Source: Acidithiobacillus caldus ATCC 51756
Lineage (GTDB): Bacteria > Pseudomonadota > Gammaproteobacteria > Acidithiobacillales > Acidithiobacillaceae
Assembly (NCBI RefSeq): GCF_000175575.2
Contig: NZ_CP005986.1
Location: forward strand, 1,371,549-1,435,548
Direction: 5' to 3'
DNA length: 64,000 bases
Shown piece after piece: positions 1,513 to 11,593 of this stretch. The translations under genes were made by a program, and so were the position numbers. Positions within the stretch are counted from its first letter, which is position 1, and each line of letters starts with the position of its first letter. Under the pieces are notes generated by a model that ran no database searches, was not told the origin of the DNA, and saw only the letters and a list, made by a program, of their open reading frames with translations.

Positions 1513-2828
1513 TACGCTTAGGTGGCTGGCCTCGGAGCACATTGGGTCGAACGTTATTGTTGTTGACCGCTCTACTCCTCGTCTCTCAAGGTACCGTGTA
1601 TGTCCTTTACCATCGCTACGTACTGGACCCCGCCGCTGATCGTTTCGCACAACTGCTTTGGCGAATGACTACCACACTTGAGAACAAGGCATTTACGCAG
1701 GCCCGGATTACCGGGTTCGATTATTTACCGCCGAATGATAAACCCGGTCTACCACCAAACGATTACTTTCTTCGACGCACGGCCAATTCTTATCGTCGTA
1801 TTTCTCCAGGGGCATCGTTCAGGGCAACGAACGATAAAGGTCATCGCGTCTGGATTTGGATTCGCCCAAACCGTAAAGACCAGTGGATTGGATTTCCTAT
1901 GGGAGCTATGGATTTTGTCACCCAAGGTTTCTTGTTCGCCAAGCTTGGGTTGTTGATGTTATTTACTTTAGTTGGTGCCTGGCTGATTGTGCGCCAAATA
2001 AATCGGCCCCTGTCCTTGCTTTCCAGGCAGGCCGTACGTATTGGTAAGGGAGAGGTGCCTGCCGCAACGGAACTGAACCATGCTCCAGTTGAAGTACAGG
2101 CTCTAGGGGCAGCCATTCAGCGTATGGCAGAGGATATTCATAGGCTGCACGAAGATCGCAGCCTATTGTTGACAGGAATATCGCACGAATTACGTACGCC
2201 GCTATCTCGTCTTTTGCTGACTTTGCATTTGGATGATGCAGAATTGCTGAAGCAGAAGTCGGAAATGCAAGAGGATGTCGCCGAAATGGACGAGGTACTC
2301 GATAAGTTTCTCACATTGGTTCGGTCGGGAGAGCATGAGCAACCGGTGATAGCAGAGGGCCAGGCGTGGTTGCGGCGCATGTCCGCTCTGGCACAAACAA
2401 AATACCACTTAGATGTGAGATGCCAACGCTTTGACGCAGCCTCCACAGGATCCCCCCTTATAAGGGTTCGACCGTTATCGTTGGAGCGGGTATTTCGCAA
2501 TCTGTTCGACAACGCGAAAAAGTATGGCAGTGGCGTTCTGGATATGACCATGGAGACGGATGGTTCCGAGGTCCGGTTTCTTCTTGTTGATCGTGGTACG
2601 CATCTCGAAGCGCCGATTGTGTACAGAATGAACAGTGGCGAGTCTGCTCGGCAACCCGGACATGGGATGGGAATCGGGTTGATGATTTGTCATCGCATCA
2701 TGGCATTGCACAAGGGCTCTTTGCATTTCACATCAGAGGATGGGCTGGCGGCAACCATTTGCCTTCCGAGAGTACAAGATGGAGTAACATCGGCACAGAG
2801 ACAGGAATTCAACGCACGTAAATTGTAA
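1509..2828 (+). CDS. rsrS: Sensor histidine kinase RsrS
   Basis: Membrane histidine kinase of 439 aa, partner of RsrR. TM1 is at about residues 13-36 and a sensor region at about 37-142 should lie in the periplasm. TM2 at about 143-163 is followed by HAMP. The H-box GISHELRTPLSR has His226, the N-box is FRNLFDNAKKYG, and the glycine-rich G-box is HGMGIGLMICHRI. The D-box between them is divergent (LVDRGTHLE). The order TM-sensor-TM-HAMP-HisKA-HATPase is that of EnvZ/CpxA-type kinases. It overlaps rsrR by 4 bases. Its stop codon touches the RsrR-type inverted repeat, so tetH transcription starts directly behind it. The sensed signal is inferred to be a sulfur intermediate such as tetrathionate. 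Confidence 0.9.
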   Translation: MIRLGGWPRSTLGRTLLLLTALLLVSQGTVYVLYHRYVLDPAADRFAQLLWRMTTTLENKAFTQARITGFDYLPPNDKPGLPPNDYFLRRTANSYRRISPGASFRATNDKGHRVWIWIRPNRKDQWIGFPMGAMDFVTQGFLFAKLGLLMLFTLVGAWLIVRQINRPLSLLSRQAVRIGKGEVPAATELNHAPVEVQALGAAIQRMAEDIHRLHEDRSLLLTGISHELRTPLSRLLLTLHLDDAELLKQKSEMQEDVAEMDEVLDKFLTLVRSGEHEQPVIAEGQAWLRRMSALAQTKYHLDVRCQRFDAASTGSPLIRVRPLSLERVFRNLFDNAKKYGSGVLDMTMETDGSEVRFLLVDRGTHLEAPIVYRMNSGESARQPGHGMGIGLMICHRIMALHKGSLHFTSEDGLAATICLPRVQDGVTSAQRQEFNARKL

Positions 2829-2857
2829 CACCTGTTACACCTGTTACAACTTGTTAC
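2827..2857. promoter_or_regulatory. RsrR-binding inverted repeat upstream of tetH
   Basis: AACACCTGTTACACCTGTT occupies 2827-2845. As I recall, this is exactly the 19-base repeat reported as the RsrR site controlling A. caldus tetH. A third, imperfect unit (ACTTGTTAC) follows in phase to about 2857. The site lies about 45 bases before the TATACT hexamer, suitable for an OmpR-family activator, and begins inside the rsrS stop codon. Confidence 0.85.
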
Positions 2858-2906: not shown

Positions 2907-2968
2907 ATCCGAAGCGCGGCGTAGTTATGCCCCTAGACAACGTATTAGCGATTCGGAGATTATATATC

Positions 2969-4480
2969 ATGATTAAAAGATATTACGCGATCGGTATTGC
3001 CGTTACCGCAACCCTCTTGATTCCGACCGAGGCCCTTGCATCGATCACCCCCGTTCTGCAACCGGGAAACCCGTTCGATCCGGACAGTCCTTTTGCGCGT
3101 TTGTACCTACCCCAAAATGCGCCCAAAGGCAAGGATAAGGTAGGTCCCGCGGAATGGACACACGCGTATGGAAGTCCGACACACAATGCCGGATTTTCGG
3201 TGAGCGCGCACGCACCAGCCTGGGTCCGACGCGGTGTTCAGTGGAATTTTCCAGAAGCCCGCGCCTGGCCGTTGACGGATCCTACTCCTTTCGGAGCTCA
3301 AGTAGACGGCGTTAAGGAAGCACTGCCTGTGCAAACTCAATTTTATGGTAATGCCTTGGGTGTCTCAATGGTTCGCGGCGTTGTCTATGCCGAAAGTGAC
3401 GACATGTTCGCCTATGCGATTAATGCCAGAACCGGAAAATTGATATGGCGCACTAGCCCTGTTGGCAATAATCTGATGGGTAATCCACTGGTTATTGGTA
3501 ACCGCGTTTTCCTTTCTGCTGGAAGTGTATCGTTCAACTTTGCGAACGTAGTGGAGTTTAAGACGGATCCAGATAAAGCAGGCCGCGGAAAAGATATAAG
3601 CTATAACGGTATCTACTGCCTAAATAGCAAGACTGGTATGCTCGAATGGTACTTTCCGACGGCTGGAGACGCAATGCCGACTCCGGCCTATGCGTATCAT
3701 TCGTTATACATTAGTACCGGTGATGGTAATGTATATCGCATCAATGCCAGCGATGGAAAGCAAATCTGGAAAACCCACGTGGGTGGTATCGCAAATATGT
3801 CGAGTCCCGCTGTTTGGCATGGTCGCGTTTATGTTGGCATGTCCGTGGTTCCCGGCCTGTATGCGCTGAATGCGCGCACCGGCAGTGTGGACTGGAAAGG
3901 GGAGATTCCCGGTGCAGTGAACACCGGCATGGGCGACGTGTCGCCTGCTGTGGCTCACGGGATCGTGGTCATGGATGCGGTTGCCAATCCAAAGATTGTG
4001 GACGGAAAGCCCACCATGGTGACCCTCGTGCGTGGCTTCAACGCCAAAACTGGAACCGCGTTGTGGACGGACAACATGGGACGAGGCGCAAAGATCCCGG
4101 CATTCAAAGGTGGTGTTCCAATGATCCACGGAAATGTCGTGTATGTTGGGTCACCGGTGACCTCGGACTACGATGCCATCAATCTGGATACCGGTAAGGT
4201 ACTTTGGACCTGGCATGTGCCGCATCCGGGTCCTGCTGGCGCAGCCAGGGGAGCCCCAACCTACTATCAACATATGCTGTACATCTCAACGGGGCCCGAT
4301 CTATACGTGTTGAATCCAAAAAATGGTCAGGAAGTTGGACATTACCATGTGGGGGGACGGTTTGGAATTGTCAATCCCACTATCGTTGGTGGCACCATTT
4401 ATCTTGGGAACTCGTGGGATTGGGTCAACGCGGTGCCGGTAAAGGACGTATACTCCGGGTTCAACACGGCCAAAGATTGA
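2969..4480 (+). CDS. tetH: Tetrathionate hydrolase TetH (PQQ-type beta-propeller)
   Basis: Secreted tetrathionate hydrolase that splits tetrathionate to thiosulfate, sulfur and sulfate in the S4I pathway. From ATG 2969 the product is 503 aa with a signal peptide (MIKRYY, hydrophobic core, cleavage after EALA). An in-frame ATG at 2927 would add 14 residues ahead of the signal peptide. ATG 2969 is preferred because CGGAGAT sits 9 bases upstream and the N-terminus becomes canonical. The mature part consists of repeated propeller blades (GKLIWRTSP, GKQIWKTHV, GSVDWKGEI, GKVLWTWHV) and contains GDVSPAVA and GSPVTSDYDAINLDTG, features of this family. The gene is followed at 13 bases by doxD. RsrR control is expected from the upstream repeat. 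A paralogue lies at 7549-8906. Confidence 0.93.
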   Translation: MIKRYYAIGIAVTATLLIPTEALASITPVLQPGNPFDPDSPFARLYLPQNAPKGKDKVGPAEWTHAYGSPTHNAGFSVSAHAPAWVRRGVQWNFPEARAWPLTDPTPFGAQVDGVKEALPVQTQFYGNALGVSMVRGVVYAESDDMFAYAINARTGKLIWRTSPVGNNLMGNPLVIGNRVFLSAGSVSFNFANVVEFKTDPDKAGRGKDISYNGIYCLNSKTGMLEWYFPTAGDAMPTPAYAYHSLYISTGDGNVYRINASDGKQIWKTHVGGIANMSSPAVWHGRVYVGMSVVPGLYALNARTGSVDWKGEIPGAVNTGMGDVSPAVAHGIVVMDAVANPKIVDGKPTMVTLVRGFNAKTGTALWTDNMGRGAKIPAFKGGVPMIHGNVVYVGSPVTSDYDAINLDTGKVLWTWHVPHPGPAGAARGAPTYYQHMLYISTGPDLYVLNPKNGQEVGHYHVGGRFGIVNPTIVGGTIYLGNSWDWVNAVPVKDVYSGFNTAKD

Positions 4481-4493
4481 GAGGAGACGGACG

Positions 4494-5579
4494 ATGACAT
4501 CGATCGTAGATAAGGAAATCTCGAAAAATGCACAACCTCACAGCAAACGGAGTTGGTGGATATTGTCGGTAGGCTTATTGGCAGTACGGTTTGTGCAGGG
4601 GTGGATTTATTGGGGTGGGGGATCCAGGCGATTCATATACGGTCCACAAAAACTTAATCCACACGATCACTGGATGGCCTATAAGTTTCAAACGGCTATG
4701 CCCGGCGCAATTCTCGGGACGCAGCATATTATCGCCTTTTTGCTGCATCATTTTACGCTCTTGTATGCTTGCGTCATTATCTTTAGTGCCGTCGAGCTCG
4801 TTTCTGGCCTAATGCTCCTTACGGGATTTCTCACGCGACTGGCCGCATTTTTGACGCTCGGACTTTCGTTTACGCTCATGCTGATGTTTGGTTGGCAAGG
4901 TGCTACCTGTATTGACGAGTGGACCATGGCAGCCTCTAATTTCGCTATGGGGATCACCCTCGTACTCCTCGGCAGCGGAGCGTATTCGCTAGATAACTGG
5001 GTTGCTCGTAAGAATCCGGTACTGGCGGAGAAGGGATGGTTTCGCTGGCTTGGTGGCAGCACACCATTACCGCTATCCGATGGAGCATTTAAAAAGCTGT
5101 CCTTGGTTCTATTCTGGATTGGGGTAGTTTTCATTGTTGGGACGTATTCCTATTACCGTGGCTCTGTTGTAACGCCTTTTCATGGTGATCCCACTGGAGT
5201 AAAGGCGCACCACATCGCGTTGACCAAAGGCCGGATCGTGGATCATAAAACCTTGGACGTAACAATGTACGTGGACGCGGGGACTCCGACCGTGCCGGCA
5301 CATATTATTTGGATTCGGTTGGAGAATGCGGCGGGAAAGACGCTGGACAGGTGGAATGCAAAAACTCTGTCTCACCTGAATCCGAAGGCTATCCACAATA
5401 TTTTTGCGTACCAGAAGGTTGCTCCGGATCCATTGCTCGGCCTAGAAGCTGGACTTGCGGCCAAGGCGACACTTGAACTTCCACTGGTTAGGCCCTTGAA
5501 TAATCCTTCGGCCAATTCGCATGACAAAATTGTGATGCAGGGAATTAATGGGGTCGTTTCGACCGGAATGGTCTCCTGA
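4494..5579 (+). CDS. doxD: Thiosulfate:quinone oxidoreductase DoxD (DoxDA fusion)
   Basis: Membrane enzyme of 361 aa that oxidises thiosulfate to tetrathionate and passes electrons to quinone. An N-terminal DoxD-type bundle of about four to five helices runs to about residue 190 (AVRFVQGWIYWGGG, ELVSGLMLLTGFLTRLAAF). A further helix at about 200-222 leads into a soluble DoxA-like domain to the C-terminus. Archaeal enzymes have DoxD and DoxA as separate subunits; the fused form is known in Acidithiobacillus. GAGGAGACGG precedes the ATG, and the gene is 13 bases behind tetH, so both share the RsrR promoter. Its product is the substrate of TetH. Confidence 0.9.
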   Translation: MTSIVDKEISKNAQPHSKRSWWILSVGLLAVRFVQGWIYWGGGSRRFIYGPQKLNPHDHWMAYKFQTAMPGAILGTQHIIAFLLHHFTLLYACVIIFSAVELVSGLMLLTGFLTRLAAFLTLGLSFTLMLMFGWQGATCIDEWTMAASNFAMGITLVLLGSGAYSLDNWVARKNPVLAEKGWFRWLGGSTPLPLSDGAFKKLSLVLFWIGVVFIVGTYSYYRGSVVTPFHGDPTGVKAHHIALTKGRIVDHKTLDVTMYVDAGTPTVPAHIIWIRLENAAGKTLDRWNAKTLSHLNPKAIHNIFAYQKVAPDPLLGLEAGLAAKATLELPLVRPLNNPSANSHDKIVMQGINGVVSTGMVS

Positions 5580-5689: not shown

Positions 5690-6796
5690 TTAACCAGGCC
5701 CCTAAATATCTAACATCGCGTAGCGTGCTGCGGGATGGTGGAAATAGCGCGCGACTTTCTCGGGCAGTTGGCGTAGCCCGTTCATGAAAGTGGTTGCCTT
5801 CTCCAGCAAGCTTTGGGTATCTGTGCTCATGGGGCCCGTACGCAGAGCGGTTTTGAAATCGCGATTGAGATACTCGTCGGGGTTGGACTCTGGCGCATAG
5901 GGCGGCAGAAATACGAGCTCAATGCGGTCCTGTTTGTCGGCCAGCCACGCGCTTACCACCTTGGCGTGATGTACCCGCAGGTTGTCCACTACCAGGAAGA
6001 CCTTCTGCGGCGCGCCGGTGATCAGCTTTTCCAGAAAGGCGATAAAACGCTCCGCATGGATGCTGCCCTCCACGATCTCGAAGGCGATCTCTCCGCGCGG
6101 GGAAATTGCCGAAATCATCGACAGGGTGGTCCAGCGTGCCGGATGCTCGAGGATGGGGGTCTGCCCCTTGGGGGCATATCCCCGGACCCAGTGGGCATCC
6201 TCTTTGACGGCGGTTTCGTCGCCCCAGTAAATGACCGCACCTTCCTGCAGGGCACGCGCCCGAAGCCTGGGGTACTCCACCTCCAGCCACTGCCGTACAG
6301 CTTCCGGGTTCTGTTCCAGCGCCCGTTTGACCGGACGTTGGGGAGTAAACCCCCAGCGCTTGAGATATTTGCCCACCAATCGCACCTGCAAATCGATCCC
6401 GAAACGCTCCCGAATCAGTTGCCGGATGGCAGGCCGCGTCCAGAGCGCAAAAGGCATCTGCAACTGCCGTGGATCCTTTTGCACGATCTGGTCCCGAATC
6501 CAAGCCTCTGCCGCCAGAGTCAATTTACGGCAAGCCCCAACCGGCCGCCCCCGCGGGCGTTCCTCAAGGCTCTCGGTTCCTTCTCGTTTGGCTCGCGCCA
6601 ACCAACCGCGAATCGTCGAGGGATGGGCACCAGACACCTTGGCCAAGTCCTCTACTCGCATGCCCGACTGTTGGCGCAACCGCACCACCATCTGCCGCAG
6701 TATGTTGCGCCCATCCACCGTCAATTTACGCACATCTACCCGCTTCATGACCCTCAGCATAGCAAACTACTATCGGATATTTAAGGGCCTGGTTAA
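5690..6796 (-). mobile_element. Intact IS630-family insertion sequence
   Basis: Terminal inverted repeats start TTAACCAGGCCC at both ends: left 5690-5710, right 6776-6796 read on the minus strand. They match over about 21 bases with one mismatch. A TA dinucleotide lies immediately outside each end (5688-5689 and 6797-6798), the target duplication typical of IS630/Tc1 elements. One intact transposase gene fills the interior. The element separates the tetH-doxD operon from the Sel1/TetH-like genes. Confidence 0.88.
5702..6760 (-). CDS. IS630-family transposase
   Basis: DDE transposase of 352 aa. The N-terminal helix-turn-helix (VEDLAKVSGAHPSTIRGWL) is followed by a catalytic domain with Asp in YWGDETAVKEDA, Asp in FLVVDNLRVHHAK and Glu in PPYAPESNPDEYLN. 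No frame interruption is visible, so the element may be active. Two starts are possible, 6760 (ML) and 6748 (MKR); the longer is listed. Confidence 0.9.
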   Translation of the reverse strand: MLRVMKRVDVRKLTVDGRNILRQMVVRLRQQSGMRVEDLAKVSGAHPSTIRGWLARAKREGTESLEERPRGRPVGACRKLTLAAEAWIRDQIVQKDPRQLQMPFALWTRPAIRQLIRERFGIDLQVRLVGKYLKRWGFTPQRPVKRALEQNPEAVRQWLEVEYPRLRARALQEGAVIYWGDETAVKEDAHWVRGYAPKGQTPILEHPARWTTLSMISAISPRGEIAFEIVEGSIHAERFIAFLEKLITGAPQKVFLVVDNLRVHHAKVVSAWLADKQDRIELVFLPPYAPESNPDEYLNRDFKTALRTGPMSTDTQSLLEKATTFMNGLRQLPEKVARYFHHPAARYAMLDI

Positions 6797-6970: not shown

Positions 6971-7384
6971 TTAGTGGTGGGTAGGCCGGACCGCCGGGGC
7001 GTCCAGCCCCAGGTTCAGGCGGTCCTCATCGTTCAACTCAAGGCTGACGGCCGCCAGTCCAGCGCGAGCCCTCTCATCTCCTTGCGCTGCAGCAGATCGA
7101 AAGAGCTCGTACGCGTAGACGAGATTACGCGGCAGCCCCAGCCCCTGGTAAAAGAGTAGACCCAGATTGAACTGGGCTTGCGGGTCTCCCTGGTCGGCGG
7201 CAGCGCCGTACCATTTGGCGGCTTCCAGAAAATCTTGGGCAACACCGCGACCCTCCGCGTAACGCACCCCCATGTTGAACTGGGCTACGGGATCACCGGC
7301 TAGAGCACGCTGCCGCAGGGCTTCCGGTTCGTCTCTGAGTCCGGCCAACTCCAATAAGTCCAGAGGTTCTCCGTTCCAATCCAT
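6971..7384 (-). CDS. Sel1-repeat protein
   Basis: Small helical-repeat protein of about 137 aa from ATG 7384; an upstream in-frame start at 7453 is less likely because it adds Arg-rich sequence with no family features. At least two Sel1-type repeats are visible: AQFNMGVRYAEGRGVAQDF followed by EAAKWYGAAADQGDPQ, then AQFNLGLLFYQGLGLPRN followed by AYELFRSAAAQGD. Sel1 repeats usually mediate protein-protein contacts. No signal peptide is obvious with this start. It lies 164 bases downstream of the TetH-like gene on the same strand. Function unknown. Confidence 0.7.
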   Translation of the reverse strand: MDWNGEPLDLLELAGLRDEPEALRQRALAGDPVAQFNMGVRYAEGRGVAQDFLEAAKWYGAAADQGDPQAQFNLGLLFYQGLGLPRNLVYAYELFRSAAAQGDERARAGLAAVSLELNDEDRLNLGLDAPAVRPTHH

Positions 7385-7548
7385 CTCGATGCTACCCCCA
7401 AGAGCGGCTCTCGGTGCGCACCGAAGCCGGTACTTCGGTCGCCCGGTTCGCACCTACCGACGCCCTCCAAGATAAGGCGATGTGCGTGCTGAATCAAGCA
7501 GACCGCCGCTGCGCTGGTCTGGTAGTTTGTGCTGGAGACCGGCACATT

Positions 7549-8906
7549 CTAATCGTCCACGCCCAGTTTCTGCAAAGGGATGGCCTGTAGATACCCGCTG
7601 TTAGTACCAATGAAAAAGGTTTTCCCGAGCGCCACTCCATTTTGTGGACCGTATCCCCCTTGGTGCAGATTAGCGACGTGTATGACCTTTCCATTGGCTC
7701 TGTCCAAGGTAAAGAGGTTACCGTTACCCGTAGGCTGAATTACAGTATTTCGCACGATGGTGGGCGCCGCTTTCATGCCCACCTTAAGCGGGGTAGTCCA
7801 GAGGATTCGGCCATTGCTAACGTTTATGGCATATTCTCGATGGGTCACCGGGCTGCCCGTATAGATCACCCCGTGGTCAACTGCTGGTACAGCATCCTTG
7901 TTTCTGGGCGGTGTCTTCCCGGTACCCAGTGTGGTCGACCAGACCACTTTCCCGGTCGCTATGTCGATGGCCAACTCTTCCGAGTTCGAGACCGACTTTT
8001 GTCCTTTGGTCCTGGTCTCGATCTGCCCAATCGCCAGTCCGTCGGCTACCGCCCAGGTACCGTCGCCACCGCTGCTGGAGAAAATATGGGCAGGATGCAC
8101 TTTCCACAAAAGTCTGCCCGTTGTAGCGTCGAGCGCGTAGATGTTACTTGGATGGGTTCCGCCGACAATGACTACGTTGTTCTGGGGATCTAAGGCGGCG
8201 GAAGACATGCTGACAAACGATTGGATGGCGGTCTTCCATTTCAGGGCACCGTTGGCAGCATCCAAGGCGTAGACATGGCCGTCGCCGTTACCAAAGATGA
8301 GCATGCCGTGATCGAATACCGCGCTGGGCATGTCCTCTCCCTTTGTCCGGTAGGTCCATACGAGTTTTCCGGTTGCCGCATCGACGGCATCGATTGCCGA
8401 CACATCGCTGCCCCGGATCACCTGAGCGTCTTTCATGCCGAATTTCCGGGCGTGGCTATAGGTGAATACCGAATTTCCGGCACCCACGAACACCAGCGTT
8501 TTACCAGCGACGCGAGCCACTACCGGTGTGGTCATCAACTGGTTGTAGGCGTCGAATGCCCAATCGAGTTTGCCGCTTTTTGCCTGGAGCTTATACAAAT
8601 AGCCGTTGTCATTGGGCGCAAAGACGGCATGGTCCGCTACAGAAACCCCGATAGGAAACCCCACGAGGTCACGGATGGTGGTGTTATTGAGAACCGCTTT
8701 CCGCGCGGCCGCCGCCCCGGGCACCTCAAAGGTCCACGAAACCGCAGGAAATGGTAATTTGATGAAGGCATTATGGCCCGGTTGAAACGCATACATGGGC
8801 CACAGTGTGGGTGTTATCCCTGCCGCGGCGGTTGGTACGTACAGGAAACTGCCGGTGATTACCGCGGAAATTAGCCTGAAAATAGTCGGGATCGTGTCCG
8901 AATCAT
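7549..8906 (-). CDS. TetH-like PQQ beta-propeller protein, probable signal-peptide frameshift
   Basis: Paralogue of TetH. The mature part starts GITPTLWPM against SITPVLQPG in TetH, and both carry a GSPVT motif and blade motifs such as GKLDWAFDA, GKLVWTYRT and GRILWTTPL. The best start is ATG 8906, preceded by AAGGAA (8913-8918), giving a good signal peptide start (MIRTRSRLF). That frame closes after about 11 codons. One extra T in the run of four T (A on the + strand, 8879-8882) would join it to the main frame, ending the signal at PTAAA. As written, the long frame opens only from a GTG at 9009 with a poor N-terminus. The gene is therefore either inactivated, slippage-controlled, or affected by a sequencing error. 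A propeller with a role in sulfur-compound metabolism is inferred; its substrate is unknown. Confidence 0.75.
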
Positions 8907-9009
8907 GGTAGGTTCCTTGTCCATACAAGTATTCGCTCGTGCGCACTGAAGCATTATTTATGCCCGGCAAAACCCGGAGGACCGCGCCCCATATGGCGCG
9001 CAATGGCAC

Positions 9010-10174: not shown

Positions 10175-11593
10175 GAGCTATGCTCGAATCTGGTGTACGG
10201 GAGGTCTACAACTAGCTTGAGGAGGGTGGCGCACTGTTGCTAGAAAAGGGTTTCTGGATCCGATTCGCAACGAATGAGGAGTGCGCCATGCAAGAGAGTA
10301 CTGGTTTCGACGGAGGAATGGGAGAGTTGGGCCTGAACATCGAGGGCTTATTGCGGCGGTCCGCGCGCCAGCTGATCCAACAGGCCATCGAGGGCGAGGT
10401 GCAGGTGCTGCTGGAGGAGTATGCCGCGGTACGCATGGTCGATGGTCGCCGGGCCGTCGTGCGGAATGGATATCTGCCGGAGCGGGAGATCCTGACAGCG
10501 GTCGGCCCCGTGCCTGTACAGGTCCCCAAGGTGCGAGACCGCTCCGGTTCGGGCGTGGTCTTCCGTTCTTCCCTGGTACCGCCCTACGTGCGCAAGTCGC
10601 GGACCGTGGCCGCAGCGCTCCCCTGGTTGTACCTGCACGGGGTATCGTCGGGACGGATGCACGAGGCGCTGTCTGTTCTCCTGGGCGAGGAGGCCAAGGG
10701 GCTTTCTCCGGCCGTGCTGGGACGCTTGAAAGTCGAATGGGCGCAAGAGCATGCCCAATGGCAGCGCCGGTCTCTACAGGGAAAACGCTACGCCTATTGG
10801 TGGGCCGACGGGGTCTATACCCAGCTGCGGGCGGAGGACGATCCCCGGATGTGTCTCTTGGTCATTATTGGCGTGACGGCCGAGGGCAAGAAGGAGGTCG
10901 TGGCGGTCACCGACGGTTTACGGGAGTCCAAAGCCTCCTGGCTAGAGATCCTGCGGGACTTGCGCGACCGCGGGCTGCAGGAGGCGCCACTACTGGCCAT
11001 AGGAGATGGGGCGATGGGTTTCTGGGCCGCCCTGGACGAGATTTACCCACAAACCCGTCATCAGCGCTGTTGGGTGCACAAGACGGCCAACATCCTCAAC
11101 GAGCTACCGAAGCGCCTTCAGGGGAAAGCCAAGGCCGCCCTGCAGGCGATCTGGATGGCCGACACCCGTGAAGCTGCGGAGAAAGCCTGGCAAGCCTTCG
11201 TGCGGGACTACCAGGCCAAATATCCCAGAGCGGTCGCAAAGCTCGAGAAGGACCGGGACGTGCTGCTGACCTTCTTCGACTTCCCGGCAGAGCACTGGCG
11301 GCATATCCGCAGCAGCAACGCCATCGAATCGACCTTCGCCACCGTACGGCAACGCAGCAGCCGCACTAAAAACTGTGTCTCTCGAGCCACTTTCCTTGGC
11401 CTGAGCTACAAGCTCATCCAGCAGGCAGAGAGACACTGGCGCGGGATTCAGCATCCGGAAAGACTGCGCGAGCTCTTTGCCGGGGTGACATTTGTCGATG
11501 GGATGCCTGCCAACGAAACCCGGCTGGATCCTCAACAGGACGCCGCCTGAATCGTGTTAGCAAATGCTCATACACCAATCTTGACCATAGCTC
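10175..11593 (+). mobile_element. Intact IS256-family insertion sequence
   Basis: Left end GAGCTATGCTCGAATCTGGT at 10175; right end, read on the minus strand from 11593, GAGCTATGGTCAAGATTGGT. The inverted repeats match over about 29 bases with several mismatches. A 9-base direct repeat flanks the element, with two extra bases on the right side. It contains one intact transposase and is the full-length relative of the decayed copy at 1-751. It is inserted upstream of cydAB in the same orientation. Confidence 0.85.
10288..11550 (+). CDS. IS256-family transposase
   Basis: Mutator-type DDE transposase of 420 aa from ATG 10288, behind GAGGAG; upstream in-frame codons from a TTG at 10237 are not needed. 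Asp in YWWADGVYTQL, Asp in LLAIGDGAMGFW and Glu in SSNAIESTFATVRQR are the expected catalytic positions, and CWVHKTANIL is the usual conserved Cys/His segment. No interruption is seen, so the element may be active. Confidence 0.9.
   Translation: MQESTGFDGGMGELGLNIEGLLRRSARQLIQQAIEGEVQVLLEEYAAVRMVDGRRAVVRNGYLPEREILTAVGPVPVQVPKVRDRSGSGVVFRSSLVPPYVRKSRTVAAALPWLYLHGVSSGRMHEALSVLLGEEAKGLSPAVLGRLKVEWAQEHAQWQRRSLQGKRYAYWWADGVYTQLRAEDDPRMCLLVIIGVTAEGKKEVVAVTDGLRESKASWLEILRDLRDRGLQEAPLLAIGDGAMGFWAALDEIYPQTRHQRCWVHKTANILNELPKRLQGKAKAALQAIWMADTREAAEKAWQAFVRDYQAKYPRAVAKLEKDRDVLLTFFDFPAEHWRHIRSSNAIESTFATVRQRSSRTKNCVSRATFLGLSYKLIQQAERHWRGIQHPERLRELFAGVTFVDGMPANETRLDPQQDAA

Follow-up and report, generated by a model that had tools for sequence, protein, structure and literature searches.

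The closest described relative of the gene reported here is tetrathionate hydrolase (TetH or Tth). For Acidithiobacillus caldus, the gene order of the tetH locus and a 19-base inverted repeat that is bound by RsrR have been published (PMC5093147), and, according to a review, tetH knockouts of this organism do not survive on tetrathionate (PMC6335251). For the enzyme from A. ferrooxidans (Af-Tth), the exchange D325N is known to abolish activity (PMC10859504).

The window, a stretch of 64,000 nucleotides from A. caldus ATCC 51756, contains an exact match to the RsrR-binding repeat at 2827-2845 (+), upstream of tetH; 0.01 matches are expected by chance even if 3 mismatches are allowed. As this exact site precedes tetH and doxDA, the window is identified as the rsrRS-tetH-doxDA locus of A. 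caldus. The gene for the true tetrathionate hydrolase, tetH, is intact (2927..4480, +), as seen from its ORF, its position in the tree and a gene order as published (PMC5093147). The ORF at 4494..5579 (+) was assigned to doxDA, which codes for thiosulfate:quinone oxidoreductase, in agreement with the same published order.

Gene neighbourhood and protein family

Along the window, doxDA is followed by a transposase-like gene, a Sel1-repeat gene and a gene for a beta-propeller protein, which is the subject of this report. The Sel1-repeat protein gene (6971..7453, -; Pfam Sel1, E 1.7e-19) is located downstream of the propeller gene. The transposase-like gene (5702..6760, -), which follows doxDA, was delineated from its ORF and from the inverted repeats that flank it in the sequence, and we take it to belong to an insertion sequence. 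The tetH region lies between two mutually resembling transposase gene copies (13-751 and 10237-11550), of which the left is partial and frame-broken.

Upon scanning the window, no RsrR site was found near the propeller gene, the single match being that at 2827, and two promoter-like matches upstream of the gene are not above chance. A literature search on pseudogenes and frameshifts in A. caldus yielded nothing about this gene. Comparison with plasmid records gave no DNA match and, at the protein level, only remote propellers.

The propeller protein matches Pfam PQQ_2 (E 5e-33), and its best PDB matches by sequence are the structures 6l8a and 7cqy of A. ferrooxidans tetrathionate hydrolase (6l8a, E 5e-44). 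An AlphaFold model, built with 28 clade sequences, has a pLDDT of 87.6 and a pTM of 0.89. The same two structures are the best Foldseek matches of this model at a TM score of about 0.8 (~0.83), with BamB scoring lower. The protein is a propeller of the PQQ_2 type with TetH as its closest structure. By alignment to 6l8a, where Asp325 is chain residue 296 via the Cys301 offset, the codon equivalent to that of catalytic Asp325 was located at 8062..8064 (-). It codes for Asp (residue 261 of the window protein, P0001), and this residue is invariant in 28 of 28 aligned clade rows.

In the initial annotation, the mature sequence was considered a clear TetH paralogue, which proved too strong. The TetH rows are held together in the tree with 100/100 support, and the propeller protein falls outside this clade, where it groups with L002, L005, L006, L007, L008 and L034. 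Identity to the window's own TetH is only about 33%, while a second clade member in the A. caldus genome (C1:879 kb), which is intact, is 57% identical to the window copy. The tree places the propeller protein in a separate, well-supported sister clade of TetH (100/100) and not among close TetH paralogues.

The frame break at the export signal

The beginning of the gene is as described in the initial annotation: a well-placed ATG at 8906 opens a signal peptide and is preceded by AAGGAA (8913..8918, -), which resembles a ribosome-binding site. In an alignment with the intact gene from A. ferrivorans, both elements coincide with its start region, which has AAGGAG. The frame initiated by this ATG (8871..8906, -) covers the start of the export signal and is closed after 11 codons by a TAA (8873-8871, -). 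Its product is a short basic peptide, and translation from ATG 8906 would now yield these 11 residues only. The remaining signal peptide and the mature beta-propeller (7549..8870, -), as assigned by ORF, Pfam PQQ_2, PDB 6l8a and AlphaFold/Foldseek, are encoded in a frame that is one base apart in register. Read in this frame, a hydrophobic stretch leads via an AAA/GITPT junction into a propeller of ~420 residues, with no interruption before the stop at 7549, so that a broken signal-peptide frame with an otherwise open gene, as originally noted, is confirmed.

The break had been attributed to a run of four T, with the lesion confined to this homopolymer. The run is indeed present (8882-8879), but the break may have occurred anywhere in 8874..8905 (-), because neither frame has a stop there, and the run is only one candidate site. 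The gene has 18 runs that are four bases or longer, and the 17 besides this one (four or five bases) are without a break.

Relative to its intact relatives, the reading frame of the window copy is disrupted, as in a pseudogene, and the in-frame export signal that is present in the relatives is absent. The observation comes from one assembly of one A. caldus strain. Sequence comparison indicates that the frame break is more than chance, given the homology of the start, the match to tetrathionate hydrolase (E 5e-44) and the uninterrupted export signal in essentially all other members.

In the upstream direction, no stop interrupts the mature frame until about 9024 (-). The non-ATG start codons available in this frame are limited to GTG 9009, TTG 9003, TTG 8970, GTG 8946 and TTG 8928, and the first in-frame ATG (8796) is already within the mature domain. 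With TTG 8928, GTG 8946 or GTG 9009 as start, the protein might still be made and exported, its hydrophobic segment then being preceded by a long amino-terminal extension, and in a related protein from G001 the signal likewise comes after a long stretch. However, a convincing ribosome-binding site was found at none of the candidates, the n-region would hold two aspartates and little positive charge, and homology puts the start at ATG 8906. We consider it improbable that such a start, GTG 9009 included, is used.

Slippage control had been suggested as well. Programmed frameshifting or transcriptional slippage could toggle secretion, as the lesion is positioned at the export signal and the mature frame is still open. 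However, known slippage requires longer runs than four T, no slippery heptamer of the type X XXY YYZ fits a -1 shift, and the relatives lack the two-frame arrangement, having either one frame or different deletions. It is therefore very unlikely that the break is programmed.

Relatives, a second broken copy and the age of the lesion

When the clade alignment was used as query against GTDB species genomes, 33 loci were obtained; an earlier scan of genome contigs with the single propeller protein as query had given no matches. The loci include A. ferrivorans DSM 22755 and A. ferriphilus DSM 100412 (74% each) as well as many MAGs from acid mine drainage. The export signal is intact and in frame in about 30 relatives, as a signal peptide that in some is of the lipoprotein type. 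Exceptions are the window copy and the copy from A. ferriphilus. In the latter (L049:2540-2640), the signal has lost 7 bases by one deletion, and a second one, of ~100 bases, has removed its end together with the start of the mature part. The DNA flanking these deletions is 96-98% identical to the intact A. ferrivorans DNA, and the counterpart of this copy in A. ferrivorans DSM 22755 is 98% identical and intact. To judge from the deletions, which are different but affect the same gene end, the A. ferriphilus break is independent of that in the window.

An apparent second frameshift, which was encountered in a syntenic 18-kb comparison, was rejected as a spurious reading frame overlapping a likely tRNA gene.

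The second propeller copy of A. caldus adjoins a DsrE-like gene (L035:6660-7150, C1 about 878.7-879.1 kb) in which several small indels break the first 48 codons, including the signal peptide, while codons 49-166 are 98% identical to a congeneric protein. Two intact homologues of this gene exist elsewhere in the A. caldus genome. Also next to the second propeller copy, beside the DsrE-like gene and a DUF302 gene, is a conserved gene of ~453 residues (L035:5281-6642, with homologues in L037, L038 and L052), for which searches of Pfam, NCBIfam and PDB gave no match.

Two clade members lack the signal while the propeller frame has been kept, which would also be expected if the signal-less mature domain were a functional cytoplasmic protein and if loss of export had been selected in A. 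caldus and A. ferriphilus. However, the window copy has no good internal start, with the ATG at 8796 lying inside the mature domain, and the A. ferriphilus copy is also missing mature residues. In addition, enzymes of the TetH type are active at pH 2.5-4 (PMC10859504). A selected cytoplasmic form is thus extremely unlikely.

The mature frame has been under strong purifying selection in the past, its dN/dS being 0.05-0.17 (NG86, with saturated synonymous distances). The end branch of the window copy (0.27) is no longer than the branches of intact relatives, the copy retains 160 of the 169 positions that are invariant in the other members, and the mature frame has no further stops or frame breaks. 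In a simulation of neutral evolution, the median divergence at the first stop was 0.019 changes per site, and by 0.075 a stop had appeared in 95% of cases; these values became smaller when indels were counted. As stops arise this early and no further lesion is present, the break must be either young or a sequencing error. Both possibilities had been raised in the initial annotation and both stand, the otherwise pristine mature frame being compatible with either.

In the case of a sequencing or consensus error, the organism would carry an intact gene, with a single base miscalled in the signal-peptide region. This would account for a single one-base change of register in a gene that is otherwise pristine and has its codon constraint intact, and the cluster of small indels in the 5' end of the DsrE-like gene belongs to the same assembly. 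On the other hand, the run at the candidate site has only four bases and 17 comparable runs in the gene are unaffected, the genome is near-complete in four contigs, and the breakage of the A. ferriphilus ortholog suggests that the gene is genuinely dispensable. We consider an error rather unlikely, but it has to be taken seriously.

A real and nearly neutral loss is favoured by the independent breakage in A. ferriphilus, the intact TetH-DoxDA system and the intact second paralogue. We thus think it probable that a redundant gene for an exported TetH-like beta-propeller was recently inactivated by a small frame-changing mutation in the signal-peptide region. Proteins of the clade would be exported and would hydrolyse tetrathionate or a different polythionate, the substrate being supplied by a thiosulfate dehydrogenase encoded nearby. 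The copy in A. caldus would have been dispensable, since TetH-DoxDA and the second intact clade member remain, and a small mutation between ATG 8906 and TAA 8873 could then break the frame with little effect on fitness. In summary, the frameshift is most likely an ordinary breakage of a redundant gene, or else an assembly error. In annotations of A. caldus, this locus should not be listed as a functional second tetH.

Function of the clade and comparison with known systems

The surroundings of the relatives point to the function of the clade. In A. ferrivorans (L042) and A. ferriphilus (L049), a thiosulfate dehydrogenase gene (NCBIfam NF052225; score 402 bits, cut-off 300) is found downstream of the propeller gene, while the genes upstream code for sulfur oxygenase reductase and for a pyridine-nucleotide-disulfide oxidoreductase similar to sulfide:quinone reductases. 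A gene of the NF052225 type also adjoins the propeller gene in L041 and L048. In L050 and L051, the neighbour is a cytochrome of the TsdA type, a thiosulfate dehydrogenase that is unrelated to NF052225; the L050 cytochrome matches the TsdA structure 4wqc with E 7e-49. Matches to both types of thiosulfate dehydrogenase were obtained for L050 and L048. No NF052225 protein was found in the A. caldus genome. Because tetrathionate-making enzymes of two unrelated kinds are neighbours of the propeller gene and the catalytic Asp has been kept, the clade probably hydrolyses tetrathionate or another polythionate, which would take place in the periplasm.

From the reported failure of tetH knockouts to survive on tetrathionate, it follows that neither paralogue stands in for TetH under these conditions. 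This result fits a dead window copy, and it equally fits a copy with a different substrate.

A far more extended reading is conceivable, in which the clade represents a hitherto unrecognised second type of polythionate hydrolase, exported and paired with thiosulfate dehydrogenases instead of DoxDA, and in which A. caldus and A. ferriphilus have independently and selectively shed the export signal but retained the catalytic domain, either for use in the cytoplasm or as a reversible switch. Taken as a whole, we regard this reading as very doubtful. Apart from it, the gene family behind the broken copy is a more useful outcome than the frameshift: a clade which carries the catalytic Asp and occurs beside two kinds of thiosulfate dehydrogenase is a candidate for a second polythionate-hydrolysing enzyme in bacteria from acid mine drainage.

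Among the systems with which the window copy can be compared, BamB and other PQQ_2 propellers share the propeller repeat, but they are weaker matches by sequence and fold, and the window protein scores below the BamB family cut-off. The Tsd-linked TetH-like clade, with A. ferrivorans DSM 22755, A. ferriphilus DSM 100412 and several MAGs from acid mine drainage, is the clade to which the window copy itself belongs (71-75% identity), but the window copy differs from it in having neither an adjoining thiosulfate dehydrogenase gene nor an in-frame export signal. From the tetrathionate hydrolases proper (A. caldus TetH; A. ferrooxidans Tth, 6l8a and 7cqy), the propeller protein is set apart by its low identity (~33%), its separate clade and the absence of the long amino-terminal segment of TetH, and the window copy additionally by being out of frame at the export signal. 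Nevertheless, it has the PQQ_2 beta-propeller in common with these enzymes, they are its best match by both sequence and fold, and the equivalent of Asp325 has been kept.
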